Position numbers and translations under genes: made by a program
From: Bacteroidota bacterium
GTDB lineage: Bacteria; Bacteroidota; Bacteroidia; AKYH767-A; 2013-40CM-41-45
NCBI GenBank assembly: GCA_004295015.1
Contig: SHNE01000029.1
Location: 1-64,000, forward strand
Length of the DNA stretch: 64,000 nt
Reading direction: 5' to 3'
The notes under the pieces: model-generated
Database searches by the model: none
What the model was told of the DNA's origin: nothing
What the model saw: the letters and a program-made list of their open reading frames with translations, nothing else
Part shown: positions 7,734-32,351 of the stretch, in pieces
Numbering within the stretch: position 1 is the stretch's first letter
Layout of the letters: the number at the start of each line of letters is the position of its first letter

Positions 7734-7798
7734 TGATATCTGTCAGCTTACCGGTTGATAATTATCAGTCCTTTACATCTATTTGAATATCACCTTTG
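7734..7798 (+). promoter_or_regulatory. Tandem FNR-like dyads and -7 box of the ric-nor operon
   Basis: TGATATCTGTCA (7734-7745) and TGATAATTATCA (7756-7767) are 22 bp apart. The second, with flanking T and G, nearly matches the FNR/DNR box TTGAT-N4-ATCAA. CACCTTTG (7791-7798) matches TAnnTTTG at 7 of 8 positions and starts 29.5 bp after the second dyad centre. The predicted transcript start near 7803 lies after the ATG at 7799, so translation probably begins at 7823. Confidence 0.8.
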
Positions 7799-7822
7799 AT
7801 GATAAATTTAAACATCGATATT

Positions 7823-8548
7823 ATGATATTTGCCAATAGAAAATTATCTGAAATTGTAACTGATTTTCCATTTGTTGCCGGACTGCTTGAAAGCCATGAT
7901 CTGGACTATTGCTGCAGAGGAAAGCAAACACTTGAAGAAGCTTGTGAGACTAAAGCCAAGCTGGAAACGCTGGAAGAGGAACTTAGCTTCCTTGTAAGGG
8001 AGCAGGAGTCAAACGCAAAAGCAACTAATCCGGAAGTACTATCTAATGCTGAGCTGGTTGATCTTATTGTTAATAAGCATCATGATTACGTTAAAGCAGC
8101 CTTGCCCATTATCAGCGCCCACTTATTCAAAGTATCATCAAAACACGGGTCAAAACATCCCGAGTTACATGAAATCTATTCCATCTTTGAACGTGTTGCA
8201 GAAGAAATGACTGCTCATATGATCAAAGAGGAGCGAATTCTTTTTCCGGCTATTAAGGAAATTCAAAAGCTTGCTGAAACTGGTCTGGATACCCTTGATG
8301 CCCAAAGGTTAAACGCTCCAATGCAGGTAATGGAGATGGAGCATGAGACTGTAGGTGATTTATTGGCTGATATTAAAAAATTGTCAGCACGCTACACTCC
8401 CCCTTCCGATGCATGCATGACTTACAAAATAAGTTTCGAAGAGTTGAAGGAATTTGAAGAAGATCTTCACAGGCATGTCCATTTAGAGAATAATATATTA
8501 TTTCCCCGTGTCAGACAATCTCAATTCTCTGCTCATTCTAATGGATAA
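7823..8548 (+). CDS. ric: Iron-sulfur cluster repair protein RIC (ScdA/YtfE/DnrN family)
   Basis: The protein has 241 residues from the ATG at 7823. An N-terminal ScdA_N/DUF542 segment (LSEIVTDFPFVAGLLESHDL, then DYCCRGKQTLEEAC) carries the family's CC motif. It is followed by a hemerythrin-like four-helix bundle with iron-ligand histidines in NKHHDYV, MTAHMIKEERILFP, MEMEHETVGDLL and HRHVHLENNILFPR. RIC proteins repair Fe-S and di-iron centres damaged by nitric oxide or peroxide. It is the first gene of the operon with norC, 13 nt upstream of it. The paired FNR/DNR-like dyads fit NO or low-O2 induction. An ATG at 7799 is in frame but overlaps the predicted transcript start. Confidence 0.93.
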   Translation: MIFANRKLSEIVTDFPFVAGLLESHDLDYCCRGKQTLEEACETKAKLETLEEELSFLVREQESNAKATNPEVLSNAELVDLIVNKHHDYVKAALPIISAHLFKVSSKHGSKHPELHEIYSIFERVAEEMTAHMIKEERILFPAIKEIQKLAETGLDTLDAQRLNAPMQVMEMEHETVGDLLADIKKLSARYTPPSDACMTYKISFEELKEFEEDLHRHVHLENNILFPRVRQSQFSAHSNG

Positions 8549-8561
8549 ATAAGGGAATGCT

Positions 8562-8948
8562 GTGTCATACAGGATTTATATTGCCATATTTCTTTTTTCA
8601 TCCTACCTGAGTTTTACTCTATGGGTTTATACCTACGGTACTTCAGGCGATCCTGAAAAGCTTATCATGAGCAAGGAAGCTTATCAGGGTAAATTACTTT
8701 ATCAACAAATGAACTGTGCTTCCTGCCATCAGATTTTTGGTTTGGGTGGTTATCTGGGCCCGGAGCTTACTTCGATCATGTCTGATAAAGGAAAGAATCT
8801 TAATTATGTGGCCTCTTTTTTAAAATATGGATCTAAACAGATGCCGGCATTTGATCTCGATAGTCTTCAAGTGAAAGAACTTGTAGCATACTTATCGTAT
8901 GTTGATGCTGCATCCGGAGAAGGAGTGCAGGTTGAAGGCTTGAATTAG
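8562..8948 (+). CDS. norC: NorC-like membrane-anchored cytochrome c
   Basis: The protein has 128 residues and a GTG start 13 nt after ric. One N-terminal transmembrane anchor (IYIAIFLFSSYLSFTLWVY) is followed by a periplasmic class I cytochrome c domain with heme motif CASCH (about residue 52) and a likely axial Met in SKQMPAF. Length and layout match NorC, the small subunit that feeds electrons to NorB. The NorB-like subunit is not adjacent; two lyase genes lie between. It could also donate electrons to another acceptor, since the NorB-like protein lacks usual active-site ligands. Confidence 0.88.
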   Translation: MSYRIYIAIFLFSSYLSFTLWVYTYGTSGDPEKLIMSKEAYQGKLLYQQMNCASCHQIFGLGGYLGPELTSIMSDKGKNLNYVASFLKYGSKQMPAFDLDSLQVKELVAYLSYVDAASGEGVQVEGLN

Positions 8949-10379
<1,431 letters not shown>

Positions 10380-10393
10380 TTTGTCATTTTGCT

Positions 10394-11773
10394 ATGAAAT
10401 TCAATACAATTTTTGAACCCTTTCGAATAAAAAGTGTAGAGCCGATACCTGTTAGTACACAGGAAGAGCGCGAAGAATATTTGAAGGCGGCCTTTTATAA
10501 TCCATTTCTGCTACAGAGTGATCAGGTGCTTATTGATTTTCTGACGGATAGTGGAACTTCGGCTATGAGCAGTAATCAATGGGCCGCAATGATGAATGCC
10601 GATGAATCCTATGCGGGAGCCAGAAGTTGGGATCGTTTTGAGAAGGCTGTTCGAAACCTTACCGGAATGCCTTATATTCTGCCTACACATCAGGGAAGGG
10701 CGGCAGAACGAATTTTATACGGAAGTCTCGGTTCAAAAGGAAAATATTTTTTAAGCAATACACATTTCGATACAACCCGTGCAAATATTGAATTTAGTGG
10801 TGCTAAGGCTGTAGATATTCCAATTGCAGAGTCAAAGGATTTTATCTCTGAATACCCATTCAAAGGAAATCTTGATGTAGATAAATTAAAGGAGCTGATA
10901 CCAAAGTACGGTGCAGAGAATGTTGCAGCAGTGATCCTTACGGTCACAAATAATAGCGGTGGAGGTCAGCCGGTAAGTATGGCAAATGCAAGAGAAGTAA
11001 GCCGCTTGTGTAAGGCGAATAATATTCTTTTCGTGCTTGATGCCTGTCGCATTGCTGAAAATGCATATTTCATATGGAAGCATGAACCGGAGTTCAATTC
11101 GCATAGCTTCCTTGCTATAGCTCAGGAGATGTGTTCATTAGCCGATGCATGTGTGATGAGTGCAAAAAAAGATGCATTAGTTAATATGGGTGGCTTTCTC
11201 AGTTTGCGTGATAAAGCATTGGCAGATTCCTGTACGCAGTTGTTGATAATCACTGAAGGTTATACTACTTATGGTGGCCTCTCAGGAAGGGATATGGAAG
11301 CTGTTGCTGTCGGACTGGAAGAGGTTTTTGATCCGGCGTATTTGAATTACCGTATTCGTAGTACAACCTACCTTGGAAAAGCACTACGTGCACTTGGTGT
11401 TCCGGTGATTTACCCTATAGGTGGCCATGCAGTGTATATTGAATCGAATAAAATGTATCCTCATATTCCGATTGAACAGTACCCCGGACAGTCATTGGTT
11501 TGCAATCTTTACAGAGTAGGTGGAATCAGATCTGTTGAAGTAGGTTCGGTTATGTTTGGAAAGTATGATGAGCGGGGTAAATTAATTCCTTCAGCTATGG
11601 AACTTGTTCGTCTTGCCATACCCAGAAGAGTTTATACCCAAAGCCATATCGATTACGTGGTGGAGGTGTTTGCAGAAATAATTAAAACAAAATCTCTTGC
11701 AAGAGGATTGAAGATTATTTACGAGCCGACTTTCCTTAGGCATTTCACAGCGCGATTTGAAGAGCTGAGTTGA
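10394..11773 (+). CDS. tnaA: Tryptophanase (tryptophan indole-lyase)
   Basis: The protein has 459 residues and belongs to the same fold as the upstream lyase, with PLP lysine Lys259 in [13 protein letters not shown] and Asp216 in VLDACRI. The specificity region reads SVEVG instead of the TPL-type MERG, and SNTHFDTTRANIEFSG resembles tryptophanase. I therefore assign tryptophan to indole, pyruvate and ammonia. The substrate call is weaker than for the upstream gene because only motif comparison was possible. No leader peptide like E. coli TnaC is seen in the 14-nt gap, and no adjacent tryptophan permease is present. It is probably co-transcribed with tpl. Confidence 0.88.
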   Translation: MKFNTIFEPFRIKSVEPIPVSTQEEREEYLKAAFYNPFLLQSDQVLIDFLTDSGTSAMSSNQWAAMMNADESYAGARSWDRFEKAVRNLTGMPYILPTHQGRAAERILYGSLGSKGKYFLSNTHFDTTRANIEFSGAKAVDIPIAESKDFISEYPFKGNLDVDKLKELIPKYGAENVAAVILTVTNNSGGGQPVSMANAREVSRLCKANNILFVLDACRIAENAYFIWKHEPEFNSHSFLAIAQEMCSLADACVMSAKKDALVNMGGFLSLRDKALADSCTQLLIITEGYTTYGGLSGRDMEAVAVGLEEVFDPAYLNYRIRSTTYLGKALRALGVPVIYPIGGHAVYIESNKMYPHIPIEQYPGQSLVCNLYRVGGIRSVEVGSVMFGKYDERGKLIPSAMELVRLAIPRRVYTQSHIDYVVEVFAEIIKTKSLARGLKIIYEPTFLRHFTARFEELS

Positions 11774-11848: not shown

Positions 11849-13213
11849 ATGGACAAGCCACATCAGATCCAATCACATTCAATGGTTCGGCTCCCGGTAT
11901 TCTTTATCAGCCTGGCACTAGTATTCCTTTTCTTTGGATTATTTTTTGGACTCATTGGTAGTTTTCAGTATGTTTTTCCTGTTTGGCTGAGAGATTCTTT
12001 ACCTTTTTCCAGAATAAGACCCTTGCATGTTAGTCTTGTGATATCCTGGATTTTTACCGCCTCAACCGGAGGGCTATACTTTTATATCCAGGATTATCTT
12101 AAAAGACCTTTGTACTCTGAAAGACTGGGCTGGATGCATTTTATTCTGTTATCTATTGTCTCGCTATTAACCATTTTAACGTATGCTTCAGGTAAATTCG
12201 GAGGTCGTGAATACCTTGAGTTTCCTGCCTTGCTCGGTGTGCCTTTGATATTGTATTGGCTTTTATTCATGATTAATTTTTTTAAAACAGTGAATGTTAA
12301 ACTTAAAGCTGCGCCAATTTATATCTGGATGTGGTCAACAGGCCTTGTTTTTTTTCTGATCACGTTTCTCGAATCTCAACTTTGGCTCTTGAGTTTTTTT
12401 GGTGAGAATTTAATACGCGATACCACAGTTCAATGGAAAGCTTTGGGTTCCATGGTAGGCTCATGGAATATGTTAGTCTATGGAACGGCCTTTTATGTAA
12501 TGGAAAAAATCAGCGGAAATTCAAAGGTGACAAATTCCAATCAAACTTTTTTCTTTTATTTTTTAGGCTTAACTAATTTGATGTTCAACTGGGGACATCA
12601 TACCTATATCGTGCCTGCTTCCCCCTGGATTAAGCACATTGCATATATAATCAGCATGACAGAATTGTTGATTCTGTTTAACATTATTCGGGAATGGAAA
12701 ATTTCATTGGATACCGCAAAGAAAAATTTTCACCTGATTCCTTATCGATTTCTAATTGCTGCTGATTTATGGATTTTTGTCAACCTGATTCTGGCTATTG
12801 CTATGTCTGTTCCGGCCATCAACCGTTACACCCATGGTACGCACATTACTGTAGCCCATGCAATGGGAACAACTATTGGTATTAATACCATGATTTTGTT
12901 TTCGTCGTTGTGCTATTTGTGTGACAGGTTTTCATTGATTAAGTTCAATAGATTCAGACGGCATTTTCATATTGGTTTTTGGATCAGCAATATTTCTCTT
13001 CTGGTTTTCTGGATATCTCTGTTAATCTCCGGGTTTTTTAAGTCTGTGATGAAGGATACTAAGTCTCATCAGGAACTTATGTCTTACATCTCTCCGTATT
13101 TTAAAGTTATTTCTATAGCAGGTATTATAATGTTTATTGGATTTTCAGTGTTGATTTATGCCATACTACATATTACTTTACGAATAATAGTTGAGAAAAA
13201 AAATGGTATTTAG
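11849..13213 (+). CDS. NorB-like heme-copper oxidase superfamily subunit with altered active site
   Basis: The protein has 454 residues and about 12 transmembrane helices. NorB-like landmarks are His60 in RPLHVSL (low-spin heme ligand), GGREYLEFP, His250-His251 in NWGHHTY, and YTHGTHITVAHAMG (His337). Aligned without gaps on recalled P. aeruginosa NorB, the FeB ligands His207 and Glu211 correspond to Leu199 and Val203 (QWKALGSMVGSW). The spacing of 51 residues to the HH pair is identical. The second low-spin heme ligand (His349) is Met339. So one FeB His and the Glu are missing. It may be a divergent NO reductase, a different oxidoreductase or an NO-binding protein. It lies 75 nt after tnaA with no dyad of its own, so it is probably in the ric operon. 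Confidence 0.8.
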   Translation: MDKPHQIQSHSMVRLPVFFISLALVFLFFGLFFGLIGSFQYVFPVWLRDSLPFSRIRPLHVSLVISWIFTASTGGLYFYIQDYLKRPLYSERLGWMHFILLSIVSLLTILTYASGKFGGREYLEFPALLGVPLILYWLLFMINFFKTVNVKLKAAPIYIWMWSTGLVFFLITFLESQLWLLSFFGENLIRDTTVQWKALGSMVGSWNMLVYGTAFYVMEKISGNSKVTNSNQTFFFYFLGLTNLMFNWGHHTYIVPASPWIKHIAYIISMTELLILFNIIREWKISLDTAKKNFHLIPYRFLIAADLWIFVNLILAIAMSVPAINRYTHGTHITVAHAMGTTIGINTMILFSSLCYLCDRFSLIKFNRFRRHFHIGFWISNISLLVFWISLLISGFFKSVMKDTKSHQELMSYISPYFKVISIAGIIMFIGFSVLIYAILHITLRIIVEKKNGI

Positions 13214-13268: not shown

Positions 13269-13289
13269 TAATTAGAAAAAATGTGTTTT

Positions 13290-14015
13290 ATGAAGAAGTA
13301 TATATTAGTTGTTTTAGTATTCGGGCTTCTTTTTTCATGTAAAAAGGATAGTGATGACATTGTGCCGGTTGAAGGGCAGAATTCTCTGCTAATTGATCTT
13401 GCCTATGAAGTTGATGGACAGGCTTTGTCTTTTGATACACTCCTTTATACTAATGATGCAGGGAGTCAATATGGTGTGAGCCGGATGTGGTATTATTTAT
13501 CAAAAATATATTTGATAAAGTCTGATAGTAGTACTGTTTTTTTGAAGGATTATATTTTTGTTGACGCAAAGAATTCAGCTGCAAATCAATTAGAAATATC
13601 TGCCGTTCCTGTTGGAGATTACATAGGAATGAAGTTTAATATCGGACTTGATTCTTCACAGAATATTACAGGAGCATTGCCGGTCACTACCGATAATCTT
13701 AATATGGAATGGCCGGTTCAAATGGGCGGAGGTTACCATTTTATGAAATACGAAGGCCATGCAAGCGATAGTACCGGTAACTATGGTTTTGCTATGCACC
13801 TTGGCTTGAATCCTTACCTGGTTAAATGCGCAATTTGGAATCCAATTGTTGTTACAGCAGGTACAACAAATATTAGATTAGTGATGAACCTAAATGAATG
13901 GTTTCGTAATCCGGAGATCTATGATTTTAACGTGGATGGAAATTATTCCATGGGTGTCATGTCTGCAATGATTAAGTTATCTCAAAACGGATCGGACGTA
14001 TTTACTATACAATGA
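13290..14015 (+). CDS. mbnP: MbnP-family lipoprotein
   Basis: The protein has 241 residues from the ATG at 13290; an ATG at 13281 would add three residues. It has a lipoprotein signal with Cys in LLFSCKK, so it is likely outer-membrane or periplasmic. The domain resembles the MbnP family: MEWPVQMGGGYHFMKYEGH (about 143-161) corresponds to the family's W-rich GY-F-x-x-EG signature. MbnP partners with a MauG-like diheme enzyme (MbnH), which oxidises a tryptophan of MbnP to kynurenine and is linked to copper handling. The next gene encodes such a diheme enzyme with a 4-nt overlap, which strongly supports the call. No methanobactin genes are seen. Confidence 0.78.
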   Translation: MKKYILVVLVFGLLFSCKKDSDDIVPVEGQNSLLIDLAYEVDGQALSFDTLLYTNDAGSQYGVSRMWYYLSKIYLIKSDSSTVFLKDYIFVDAKNSAANQLEISAVPVGDYIGMKFNIGLDSSQNITGALPVTTDNLNMEWPVQMGGGYHFMKYEGHASDSTGNYGFAMHLGLNPYLVKCAIWNPIVVTAGTTNIRLVMNLNEWFRNPEIYDFNVDGNYSMGVMSAMIKLSQNGSDVFTIQ

Positions 14016-15088
14016 AAAATTATAAATTAATTATTATACTTATTCTATCTGTATTATTCATTTTTTCTTGTAAGAAGGATAATGAAGAGCAAATGCAGAT
14101 CGATAATTCCTATGTGCCTACACCGTTGGCTATACGCGTACCTGCAGGTTGGCCACAACCGGTTATTCCCGCATGGAACGAGACCACTTTAGAAGGGGTT
14201 CGATTGGGCCGTATGTTGTTTTATGATCCTATATTATCCAGTAATGGTTTGTCATGCTCTTCTTGTCATCCTCAAAACCAGGCTTTCGCTGTACCATTCA
14301 GGGTGAATTCAGCAGGTGACACAGTGAGTATTCCGCCACTTGTAAACCTTGCATGGAATCCTGATTTCGAATGGTTAGGGCAGGAGCCAATTCTCGAACA
14401 CGTACCATTGGCGGATTTCGGTCCTGAGTTTTTTAATACAAATATGGATACCTTGGTTAAAAGAATTAAGGCGCATCAGAAGTATCCGCAATACTTCCGT
14501 GAGGCCTTTAATATAAACGACGTTTCGACATTGAGTGATGATGAATTACAAAGAAATATTGCCAATGCGATCAGTCAGTTTATTCGAACAATCATTTCTG
14601 ATGGTTCTAAGTTTGACAAAGTATCACGTCATGAAACTGCTTTTACTGCCGAAGAAATGGATGGAGCAAGCATATTTTATACCGAGCGGGGTGATTGCTT
14701 TCATTGTCATGGTACTCCTTTATTTACAAATAACACTTTTAATAATACCGGACTTGATTCTGTTTTAACCGGGCAGAATTTGGGCAGGTATTTGTATACC
14801 GGAATCACAACAGACAAAGGAAAATTCAGTGCACCCAGTCTTAGGAACATTGAACTGACGGCCCCTTACATGCATGATTCCCGATTTCAAACTCTTGAAG
14901 AAGTTGTTGAATTTTATAATTCCGGTGTCCATTGGAATTCACCGAATATTGACCCGATCATGACTAAGCCTTTTAAAGAATATGGACTTCTTCTAAGCGC
15001 CGTTGAAAAGGCTGATTTAGTTGCTTTTTTGAAAACACTAACGGATACCACGCTTCTTTCCAATCCGGCCATTTCCAATCCGCATTAA
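14012..15088 (+). CDS. mbnH: MbnH/MauG-like diheme cytochrome c peroxidase family lipoprotein
   Basis: The protein has 358 residues. It has a lipoprotein signal (LFIFSCKKD) and two heme c motifs, CSSCH (about residue 83) and CFHCH (about 230). The family's C-terminal segment is LRNIELTAPYMHDSRF. The layout is that of bacterial diheme cytochrome c peroxidases and the MauG/MbnH enzymes. It overlaps the MbnP-like gene by 4 nt, so I favour an MbnH role in modifying that partner over general peroxide removal. It would act in the periplasm and needs cytochrome c maturation. It is regulated with mbnP by the dyad at 13226, so it joins the putative low-O2/NO regulon. Confidence 0.85.
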   Translation: MKNYKLIIILILSVLFIFSCKKDNEEQMQIDNSYVPTPLAIRVPAGWPQPVIPAWNETTLEGVRLGRMLFYDPILSSNGLSCSSCHPQNQAFAVPFRVNSAGDTVSIPPLVNLAWNPDFEWLGQEPILEHVPLADFGPEFFNTNMDTLVKRIKAHQKYPQYFREAFNINDVSTLSDDELQRNIANAISQFIRTIISDGSKFDKVSRHETAFTAEEMDGASIFYTERGDCFHCHGTPLFTNNTFNNTGLDSVLTGQNLGRYLYTGITTDKGKFSAPSLRNIELTAPYMHDSRFQTLEEVVEFYNSGVHWNSPNIDPIMTKPFKEYGLLLSAVEKADLVAFLKTLTDTTLLSNPAISNPH

Positions 15089-30042: not shown

Positions 30043-30234
30043 ATGAGCGTCATATTTCTCCTTATTTTATTTAGTCTTTTATTGGCCATCGGGTTTTTGA
30101 TCGCCTTCATCTGGAGCGTCAGAGATGGCCAGTTTGATGACGACTATACGCCTTCAGTAAGAATTCTATTTGATTCAGAAAATTCAGATTCCACAAAAAC
30201 ATCTTCAACTCCAACTTCAAAAGAGGATTTATGA
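30043..30234 (+). CDS. ccoS: cbb3 oxidase maturation protein CcoS
   Basis: The protein has 63 residues. It has one N-terminal transmembrane helix followed by WSVRDGQFDD, the conserved W-(x)n-GQFDD motif of CcoS. CcoS is required for heme/copper insertion into the CcoN subunit. The stop overlaps the ccoNO start by 4 nt. First gene of the structural operon, under the dyad at 29960. Confidence 0.93.
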   Translation: MSVIFLLILFSLLLAIGFLIAFIWSVRDGQFDDDYTPSVRILFDSENSDSTKTSSTPTSKEDL

Positions 30235-32351
30235 GCATTGAAAAATTTAATTACGATAACCGGACAGTAAAAAATTTCGCTATTGCAACAGTAGCCTGGG
30301 GCATTGTTGGAATGCTGGTCGGTTTAATTGCCGCGCTTGAATTAACTAGTGCCAGTATGAACGTGGCCCCTTGGTTGTCTTTCGGAAGAATTCGACCCTT
30401 GCATACCAACGCAGTTATTTTTGCTTTCGTTGGGAATGGAATTTTTATGGGTGTTTACTATTCTTTGCAGCGATTGTTGAAAGCCAGGATGTACAGCGAT
30501 TTGCTCAGCAAAATACATTTTTGGGGGTGGCAATTAATTATTGTTTGTGCTGCTATAACGCTTCCACTAGGAATTACTACCAGTAAAGAATATGCTGAGT
30601 TAGAATGGCCTATTGATATTATGATTGCTCTTGTCTGGGTAATTTTTGCGATCAATATGTTCGGAACTATTATCAAAAGACGTGAACGTCACCTTTACGT
30701 AGCGATTTGGTTTTATATCGCTACTGTAGTTACAGTTGCTGTCTTACATATTGTAAATTCTCTGGCTTTACCTGTAAGCTTATTAAAAAGTTATTCCATT
30801 TTTGCCGGTGTTCAAGATGCATTGGTGCAGTGGTGGTATGGACACAATGCCGTGGCTTTTTTCCTCACAACCCCATACCTGGGACTTATGTATTATTTTG
30901 TTCCTAAAGCCGCAGATCGACCTGTTTATTCCTATAAACTATCCATAATTCACTTTTGGGCTTTGATTTTCCTTTATATATGGGCTGGACCTCACCACTT
31001 ACTTTATACATCCTTGCCTGACTGGGCTCAGTCTCTTGGTGTAGTCTTTTCCATAATGTTACTGGCTCCATCTTGGGGTGGAATGATAAATGGATTGCTT
31101 ACACTCAGAGGAGCATGGGACAGAGTTCGTGAAAGTGCAGTGTTGAAATTCATGGTTGTGGCGATCACCGCTTATGGTATGTCAACCTTTGAAGGTCCAA
31201 TGTTATCGCTGAAAAATGTTAATGCAGTTGCACATTTTACGGATTGGATCGTTGCCCACGTTCACGTTGGTGGTTTAGGTTGGAATGGAATGCTGACTTT
31301 TGGAATTTTGTATTGGCTGATTCCAAAAATGTATCAGACGAATTTGTTTTCGAAGAAACTTGCAAATTTTCATTTTTGGATTGCGACACTGGGGATAATA
31401 TTTTATGCAATTCCGCTTTACTGGGCCGGTTTTGCACAGTCACTAATGTGGAAGGAATTTACTGCTGATGGAATTTTAAAGTATCCAAATTTTTTAGAGA
31501 CTGTCGTTCAGATTTTACCAATGTATAAACTTCGTGTTGTTGGAGGATCGCTCTATATTATCGGTGCTTTAGTTATGGTTTACAATCTTTGGAAAACCGC
31601 AGCGGCCGGAAAATTTCTTGCCAATGAAGCAGCAGAGGCACCGGCTTTGGTTAAACTCCAGCAAGAACCCAAAGGGCACTGGCATCGTTGGATCGAGAGA
31701 CGCCCTGTACAAATGTTAATGTTGAGTCTTGTTGTTATCCTCATAGGTGGAATCATTGAGATAGTCCCTATGCTCACAATTAAATCCAATATTCCAACAA
31801 TTACCTCTGTAAAACCATACACACCGCTGGAACTTGAGGGCAGAGATATTTATATTAAAGAAGGATGTTACACTTGTCATAGCCAAATGATACGACCATT
31901 CCGTTCAGAGACTGAACGATATGGTGAGTATTCAAAAGCCGGTGAGTTTGTTTATGATCATCCCTTTCAATGGGGTTCCAAAAGAACCGGCCCTGACTTG
32001 GCACGTGTAGGTGGGAAGTATCCAAACTCATGGCACTTCAATCATATGATCGATCCATCCTCTATGTCTCCCGGTTCGATTATGCCATCATATGATTTTA
32101 TGGCTGATGATGATTTGGATGTGTCTTCTACCGGAGCAAAAATTCGTGTGATGCAAAAGTTGGGAGTTCCTTACCCTGAAGGTTATGATCAAATTGCACT
32201 TGATGATTTGAATAAACAGGCAAGGTCTATCGCAGATGATTTAAAGAAGACCGGCATTTCAGTTGATCCTAAAAAAGAAATTATTGCCATGATTGCTTAC
32301 CTGCAAAGGCTTGGCGTTGATATTAAATCGAATAAGGACAAAGTTCAATAA
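30231..32351 (+). CDS. ccoNO: Fused cbb3-type cytochrome c oxidase subunits I and II (CcoN-CcoO)
   Basis: The protein has 706 residues. The N-terminal CcoN (about 1-480) has about 12 helices with all ligands visible: His in RPLHTNAV, QWWYGHNAV, AGPHHLLY, and VAHVHVGGLGW. The C-terminal CcoO (about 500-706) has one helix (MLMLSLVVILIGGIIEIVP) and heme c motif CYTCH in EGCYTCHSQMIRPFRSE. The fusion of N and O is usual for Bacteroidota. The complex is the high-affinity terminal oxidase that pumps protons at low O2. The intact ligand set contrasts with the altered NorB-like protein at 11849. Confidence 0.97.
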   Translation: MSIEKFNYDNRTVKNFAIATVAWGIVGMLVGLIAALELTSASMNVAPWLSFGRIRPLHTNAVIFAFVGNGIFMGVYYSLQRLLKARMYSDLLSKIHFWGWQLIIVCAAITLPLGITTSKEYAELEWPIDIMIALVWVIFAINMFGTIIKRRERHLYVAIWFYIATVVTVAVLHIVNSLALPVSLLKSYSIFAGVQDALVQWWYGHNAVAFFLTTPYLGLMYYFVPKAADRPVYSYKLSIIHFWALIFLYIWAGPHHLLYTSLPDWAQSLGVVFSIMLLAPSWGGMINGLLTLRGAWDRVRESAVLKFMVVAITAYGMSTFEGPMLSLKNVNAVAHFTDWIVAHVHVGGLGWNGMLTFGILYWLIPKMYQTNLFSKKLANFHFWIATLGIIFYAIPLYWAGFAQSLMWKEFTADGILKYPNFLETVVQILPMYKLRVVGGSLYIIGALVMVYNLWKTAAAGKFLANEAAEAPALVKLQQEPKGHWHRWIERRPVQMLMLSLVVILIGGIIEIVPMLTIKSNIPTITSVKPYTPLELEGRDIYIKEGCYTCHSQMIRPFRSETERYGEYSKAGEFVYDHPFQWGSKRTGPDLARVGGKYPNSWHFNHMIDPSSMSPGSIMPSYDFMADDDLDVSSTGAKIRVMQKLGVPYPEGYDQIALDDLNKQARSIADDLKKTGISVDPKKEIIAMIAYLQRLGVDIKSNKDKVQ

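Follow-up and report, generated by a model that had tools for sequence, protein, structure and literature searches.

The window, by which we mean the whole stretch of 64,000 nucleotides analysed here, encodes a homologue of the nitric oxide reductase subunit NorB that seems to lack the His and the Glu that bind the metal FeB. This raises the questions of whether the loss is real, and of what such a protein might do without its second metal. A sequence-only reading had suggested either a new NOR-related subfamily or a non-catalytic NO/haem sensor. The gene, its diagnostic codons, and its neighbours are listed in Table 1.

Table 1. Features of the NorB-like locus, with positions in the window
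Feature	Position	Strand	Evidence
RIC/ScdA/YtfE-type protein for the repair of iron-sulfur clusters, linked to NO stress	7796..8548	+	TIGR03652 E=3e-66, over cut-off
NorC-like cytochrome c with one haem and a membrane anchor, partner subunit	8562..8948	+	CxxCH, cytochrome c Pfam matches
Tyrosine phenol-lyase	8988-10379	+	TIGR02618 763 bits, over cut-off
Tryptophanase-like gene	10394-11773	+	PRK13238 662 bits
FeB-less NorB-like subunit, 454 aa (P0001)	11849..13213	+	Intact ORF; Pfam COX1, 3o0r_B, cNOR profile, AlphaFold
His60 codon, kept low-spin haem ligand	12026..12028	+	Invariant wherever covered
Q195-W-K-x-x-G200 codons, family motif; G200 opposite FeB ligand His207	12431..12448	+	Q, W, K, G invariant in 62 sequences and L109
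Asn207 codon, opposite cNOR Glu215	12467..12469	+	Invariant
His250-His251 codons, two remaining FeB ligands	12596..12601	+	Invariant
Glu272 codon, equivalent of cNOR Glu280; candidate replacement metal ligand	12662..12664	+	Invariant
His337-Ala-Met339 codons; haem b3 ligand kept, Met for second low-spin haem His	12857..12865	+	H337, M339 invariant in 63 sequences
MbnP-like gene	13281-14015	+	PF20243 4e-29
MbnH-like di-haem gene	14012-15088	+	PF03150 3e-31

Loss of the FeB ligands in a conserved protein family

The product of the NorB-like gene was assigned to subunit I of the haem-copper oxidoreductase superfamily on the basis of the Pfam COX1 profile (E=9e-35, 121 bits versus a cut-off of 34.8) and a 12-helix fold. 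Its best solved homologue is NorB of P. aeruginosa (3o0r_B, E=2e-16), NorB of R. denitrificans was found as well, and a profile-profile alignment in which 53 homologues were set against six cNORs yielded E=4e-33. An AlphaFold model built on the family alignment (mean pLDDT 91) had a TM score of 0.83 to 3o0r_B, and a VIA structural comparison of the model gave Z values of 40-42 to cNOR and cbb3. The protein is thus predicted to have the whole NOR/cbb3 fold.

The roles of the P. aeruginosa NorB residues, e.g. His207, Glu211, and His349, are those established by the known cNOR structure. In the profile-profile alignment, His207 was opposite Gly200, Glu211 was opposite a one-residue gap, and Glu215 was opposite Asn207; MAFFT paired these residues in the same way. 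The gapless register that had placed Leu199 and Val203 at the positions of the FeB His and Glu was therefore off by one, but the claimed absence of the ligands holds in either register. Residue 199 is variable in the family (N, L, M, or Y), whereas Gly200 is invariant. Misalignment of helix VI was considered and rejected, because neither MAFFT, nor the profile-profile alignment, nor the gapless register placed a His or a Glu at the FeB positions. His207 and Glu211 are absent in 62 of 62 homologues, none of which has a His at the helix-VI FeB positions. The expectation that no other His or Glu would take their place was borne out within helix VI, where none is conserved, but less so outside of it, as the invariant Glu272 might reach the metal.

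The remaining ligands fared differently. The His258-His259 pair of cNOR (residues 250-251), Glu280 (272), Glu135 (121), His347 (337), and His60 are all retained, and His60, His250, His251, and His337 had been correctly recognized. The second ligand of the low-spin haem, His349, is replaced by Met339 in all 62 homologues, as had been noted for the single sequence; the low-spin haem b would thus be ligated by His60 and Met339 instead of two His. Invariant across the 62 homologues are QWK 195-197, G200, G204, N207, Y211, HH 250-251, E272, H337, and M339, and H60 is invariant wherever it is covered. All ligands are present in four canonical cNORs (L071-L074) that other genomes of the class encode, and alignment verified the same for the CcoN of the window (30231-32351).

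The pattern QWKxxG...N, HH, Glu, and H-x-M recurs in a Sulfidibacter homologue (L069) and in an Acidobacteriota homologue that is only 32% identical (L109). The dN/dS values between close pairs were 0.01-0.12. Because the traits occur in 62 of 62 homologues and in a 32%-identical relative, and because dN/dS is so low, the loss of the FeB ligands is real and general, and not the result of decay or error. Two of the homologues found contain a premature stop, which would fit a pseudogene, a sequencing error, or an alignment artefact. However, such an explanation is hardly credible in view of the match to the cNOR profile and the confidence of the model, and it is refuted by the conservation of the signature and the dN/dS values.

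Known relatives and the machinery of FeB insertion

In a maximum-likelihood tree, which was a quick search rooted on CcoN and carries a long-branch warning, the NorB-like family formed one clade (SH-aLRT 99) to which neither cNOR nor qNOR, NOD, or CcoN belonged; its branch is long and adjoins cNOR+(qNOR+NOD), and cNOR formed a separate clade (97). Together with an invariant motif of its own in 63 sequences, this supports the proposed new NOR-related subfamily. When the family profile was compared with the PDB at E<=10, only cNOR and cbb3 were listed, and no B-family oxidase.

The family resembles cNOR (P. aeruginosa 3o0r, R. denitrificans 4xyd) in fold, in length, in the NorC-type cytochrome c partner, and in the retained residues described above. 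It differs from it in the lack of His207, Glu211, and Glu215, in the Met for His349, in the lack of norQ/norD, in not being located beside nir, and in its separate clade, with about 20-25% identity. The NOR-type fold is also common to qNOR and NOD, and the FeB site of NOD is altered as well. However, each of these is one fused protein of 750-880 aa in which the helix-VI His and Glu have been kept. The hallmark of NOD is that HH has become HN and Glu has become Gln, and its set of changes is thus the opposite of that in the NorB-like family, which has kept HH and Glu. CcoN of the cbb3 oxidases shares the fold and the RPLH and QW motifs, but has kept the helix-VI CuB His and H-x-H where the NorB-like protein has Gly200; the NorB-like protein scored 65 bits with the ccoN model, versus a cut-off of 583.

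Non-canonical active-site residues are also present in other NOR-type members of the superfamily. eNOR, sNOR, gNOR, nNOR, and bNOR are relatives of the B-family oxidases (PMC11388526). The active-site residue is Q, N, D, and N in eNOR, sNOR, gNOR, and CuANOR, respectively (PMC8756737 Table A4), and sNOR, gNOR, and eNOR have a cupredoxin subunit (PMC8756737). Going by these descriptions, one active-site residue is changed in these enzymes, whereas the NorB-like family has a haem c subunit and has additionally lost the helix-VI His. Searches of the literature on NorB proteins that lack the FeB ligands, and on nor genes adjacent to nosZ of clade II in Bacteroidota, retrieved no description, in agreement with the assumption that the subfamily had not been characterised as an active NOR; Murali et al. 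2024 was outside these searches, and an earlier mention is possible. To all appearances, this widespread and conserved lineage has not been described before.

cNOR does not receive its FeB without NorQ and NorD, and NorCB produced without NorQDEF is stable and carries all its haems, but contains no FeB and is inactive (Kahle et al. 2023, PMC9976466). The NorB-like family appears to be by nature what this P. denitrificans protein is in the laboratory, with the difference that the latter still has the ligands, which are merely unfilled (PMC9976466). In our survey of 247 Bacteroidia genomes, each at least 90% complete, norD was present in exactly the 12 genomes with a cNOR, at a distance of 0.9-4.2 kb from the cNOR gene. 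NorD was not found in any of the 50 genomes in which the NorB-like protein is the only cNOR-type subunit. In P. denitrificans NorB, Glu222 is needed for FeB insertion and has been taken as the docking site of NorD (PMC9976466). At this position, all six cNORs have a Glu, whereas at least 60 of the 63 NorB-like members have a non-acidic residue; in the Asp220 column, 16 of the 63 have an acidic one. FeB ligands, the chaperone NorD, and the docking residue have therefore been lost together in this lineage, which independently supports that FeB is missing. The absence of NorD is by itself no proof of the absence of FeB, because qNOR obtains FeB without NorQD (PMC9976466).

Gene neighbourhood and co-occurrence with nosZ

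In the window, the genes for RIC, the NorC-like protein, tyrosine phenol-lyase, the tryptophanase-like protein, the NorB-like protein, MbnP, and MbnH are arranged on one strand. The gaps are 13-75 bp, with 13 bp between RIC and the NorC-like gene, and the last two genes overlap by 4 bp. To judge from this arrangement, the run from RIC to MbnH probably forms an operon. In nearly all loci, the NorC-like gene is directly upstream of the NorB-like gene. The NorC-like sequences carry CxxCH and a distal Met-Pro motif, and a NorC haem c partner is thus present. The two lyase genes separate the NorC-like from the NorB-like gene only in close relatives, and the insertion was also seen in L032, L033, and L075. 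The MbnP/MbnH-like genes are associated with the NorB-like gene only in some relatives; this pair of a copper-related protein and a di-haem MauG-type enzyme adjoins an FeB-less norB elsewhere, e.g. at L085:5276-7058. The distant Acidobacteriota member (L109, 4335 bp) has a NorC-like neighbour in which CxxCH occurs twice, i.e. a di-haem form.

In other genomes, the norC-norB-like pair is located beside nosZ-nosD-nosF-nosY, RIC, Rrf2, and CRP/FNR genes. Between the CRP/FNR-type and the NorC-like gene, several loci encode a membrane protein (about 415 aa) in which the motif HGHSHFAFSGW is conserved (L050:6347-7591, also L052, L054, L056, L062, L063, and L066-L068), and for which no match was found in Pfam, NCBIfam, or the PDB. 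The missing second metal and the CRP/FNR and Rrf2 regulators that adjoin in several genomes would be compatible with a membrane sensor of NO or O2 that reports to a partner. However, the regulators are not constant neighbours, the electron-donating NorC-like subunit is conserved, a signalling domain is absent, and the electron path has kept its haem ligands, one of them as Met. These features point to a redox complex, and the sensor that had been suggested from the sequence is therefore very improbable.

The NorB-like family was present in 54 of the 247 Bacteroidia genomes and could be cleanly separated from true cNOR (E-values of 1e-78 versus 1e-27). For comparison, cNOR was found in 12 genomes, qNOR in 4, a NOD-type protein in 7, clade II NosZ in 87, and NirK or NirS in 23, with three weak NirK-like matches left out. 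The counts separate qNOR from NOD, because seven of the eleven genomes with fused NOR-like matches contained the NOD type rather than qNOR. Outside Bacteroidia the family is rare: among 149 genomes from the phylum that includes Sulfidibacter, it was found in 2, of which one is the distant L109, and it was also found in one genome of another class of the phylum.

nosZ was present in 45 of the 54 genomes with the family, but only in 42 of the 193 genomes without it (OR 18). At the genus level, the numbers were 30 of 34 versus 26 of 108 (OR 24). As species are not independent samples, the P values of co-occurrence are indicative only. Both genes were located within 20 kb of each other in 9 of the 45 genomes, compared with an expectation of 0.5. 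Canonical NORs, in contrast, track nir (14 of 16 genomes, OR 173; within 20 kb in 6 of the 14), whereas the NorB-like gene was within 20 kb of nir in none of 11 genomes, and 43 of the 54 genomes with the family have no nir. The genomic ties of the family are thus to NO-stress genes and the N2O reductase of clade II, and not to nitrite reductase.

The association with nosZ and the repeated linkage to nos clusters might indicate a module that transfers electrons in the N2O respiration of clade II, in which the NorCB scaffold would serve as a haem relay to or from the nos chain without any gas chemistry, and a His/Met haem b would suit such a relay. We regard this as unlikely, because HH and Glu272 of the haem b3 pocket are invariant and would be needless for a mere relay; in addition, 9 of the 54 family genomes lack nosZ and 42 nosZ genomes lack the family.

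Five of the seven genomes with a NOD, which represent only two genera, carry a NorB-like gene, always 4-18 kb from the NOD gene. Several Bacteroidia encode NOD-type proteins whose FeB site has HN and Gln (L085:578-2905, L088:375-2678, L090:120-2771, L091:435-2798, and L093:1512-3878).

Possible functions

The genome of the window encodes a NirK with a C-terminal cytochrome c domain (L095:5643-7124 on contig C10; TIGR02376 over cut-off) and a clade II NosZ (contig C6, L096), and no NOR-like protein was found in it apart from the one described here. Nine nir genomes of the survey lack a canonical NOR, and six of these, including that of the window, carry the NorB-like family. This suggests that the NorB-like protein may perform NO reduction in these six genomes. 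The situation is not confined to our sample, as 9% of the Bacteroidota with denitrification genes are reported to have nir and nosZ without nor (PMC12569097). In such Bacteroidota, either the NorB-like protein is the missing reductase, or the NO step still lacks an explanation.

These genomes are the main argument for a true NO reductase, in which an iron would be bound by a rebuilt site of two His and one carboxylate (His250, His251, and Glu272). The invariance of these three residues in 63 sequences and the retained NorC partner are consistent with it. However, two ligands and the second-sphere Glu have been lost, NorD is missing, the gene is never near nir and mostly occurs in genomes without it, and the NO reductase activity reported for a Cloacibacterium isolate, which is discussed below, was minor (PMC11168931). 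A rebuilt site is therefore doubtful.

We favour, with a probability of about one half, the interpretation that the gene encodes the large subunit of a membrane haem complex that is derived from NorC-NorB, lacks FeB, and gives protection by binding NO and slowly consuming it, instead of serving as a respiratory NOR. Electrons would pass from a periplasmic cytochrome c via haem c and the His/Met haem b to haem b3, where NO (or O2) would bind in a pocket that Gly200 and Gly204 make wider. Two NO molecules would not be coupled efficiently without a second metal, and N-N coupling would be slow or would not occur at all; the complex might thus handle NO protectively in N2O-respiring cells rather than support respiration. 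This interpretation is supported by the ligand loss under purifying selection within a whole NOR fold, the identity of the NorD and cNOR genome sets, the lost docking Glu222, the linkage to nosZ, and the distance from nir, as well as by the RIC, Rrf2, and CRP/FNR neighbours, the five co-resident NOD genes, and the findings on Cloacibacterium described below. Against it stand the nir genomes that have no other NOR and the invariance of His250, His251, and Glu272, as if a metal were still bound. Somewhat more tentatively, the protein may be seen as a natural NorCB without a dinuclear metal centre, which has lost FeB, chaperone, and docking site, has acquired a His/Met haem b, and has come to serve clade II N2O respiration as a redox partner or by handling NO.

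The lineage offers a natural test of what a haem-copper protein does without its second metal, and the joint loss of FeB ligands, NorD, and docking residue offers one of FeB installation. It also matters for annotation, because members of the family can be mistaken for cNOR. As the residues that bind the metal for NO reduction have been lost, some N2O-consuming bacteria may have been wrongly annotated as N2O-making, and would thus look like N2O producers.

A probable case is the farmland inoculant Cloacibacterium CB-01. It was reported to carry a 'cNor' and shows 'minor NO reductase activity' (Hiis et al., PMC11168931), and the prediction from its genome was NO to N2O to N2 (mBio 2022, PMC9239227). 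In five of seven genomes of Cloacibacterium species, a member of the NorB-like family is the only cNOR/qNOR-like gene, and in the other two no cNOR/qNOR-like gene was found. The simplest explanation, judging from these genomes, is that the 'cNor' of CB-01 is probably the FeB-less homologue.
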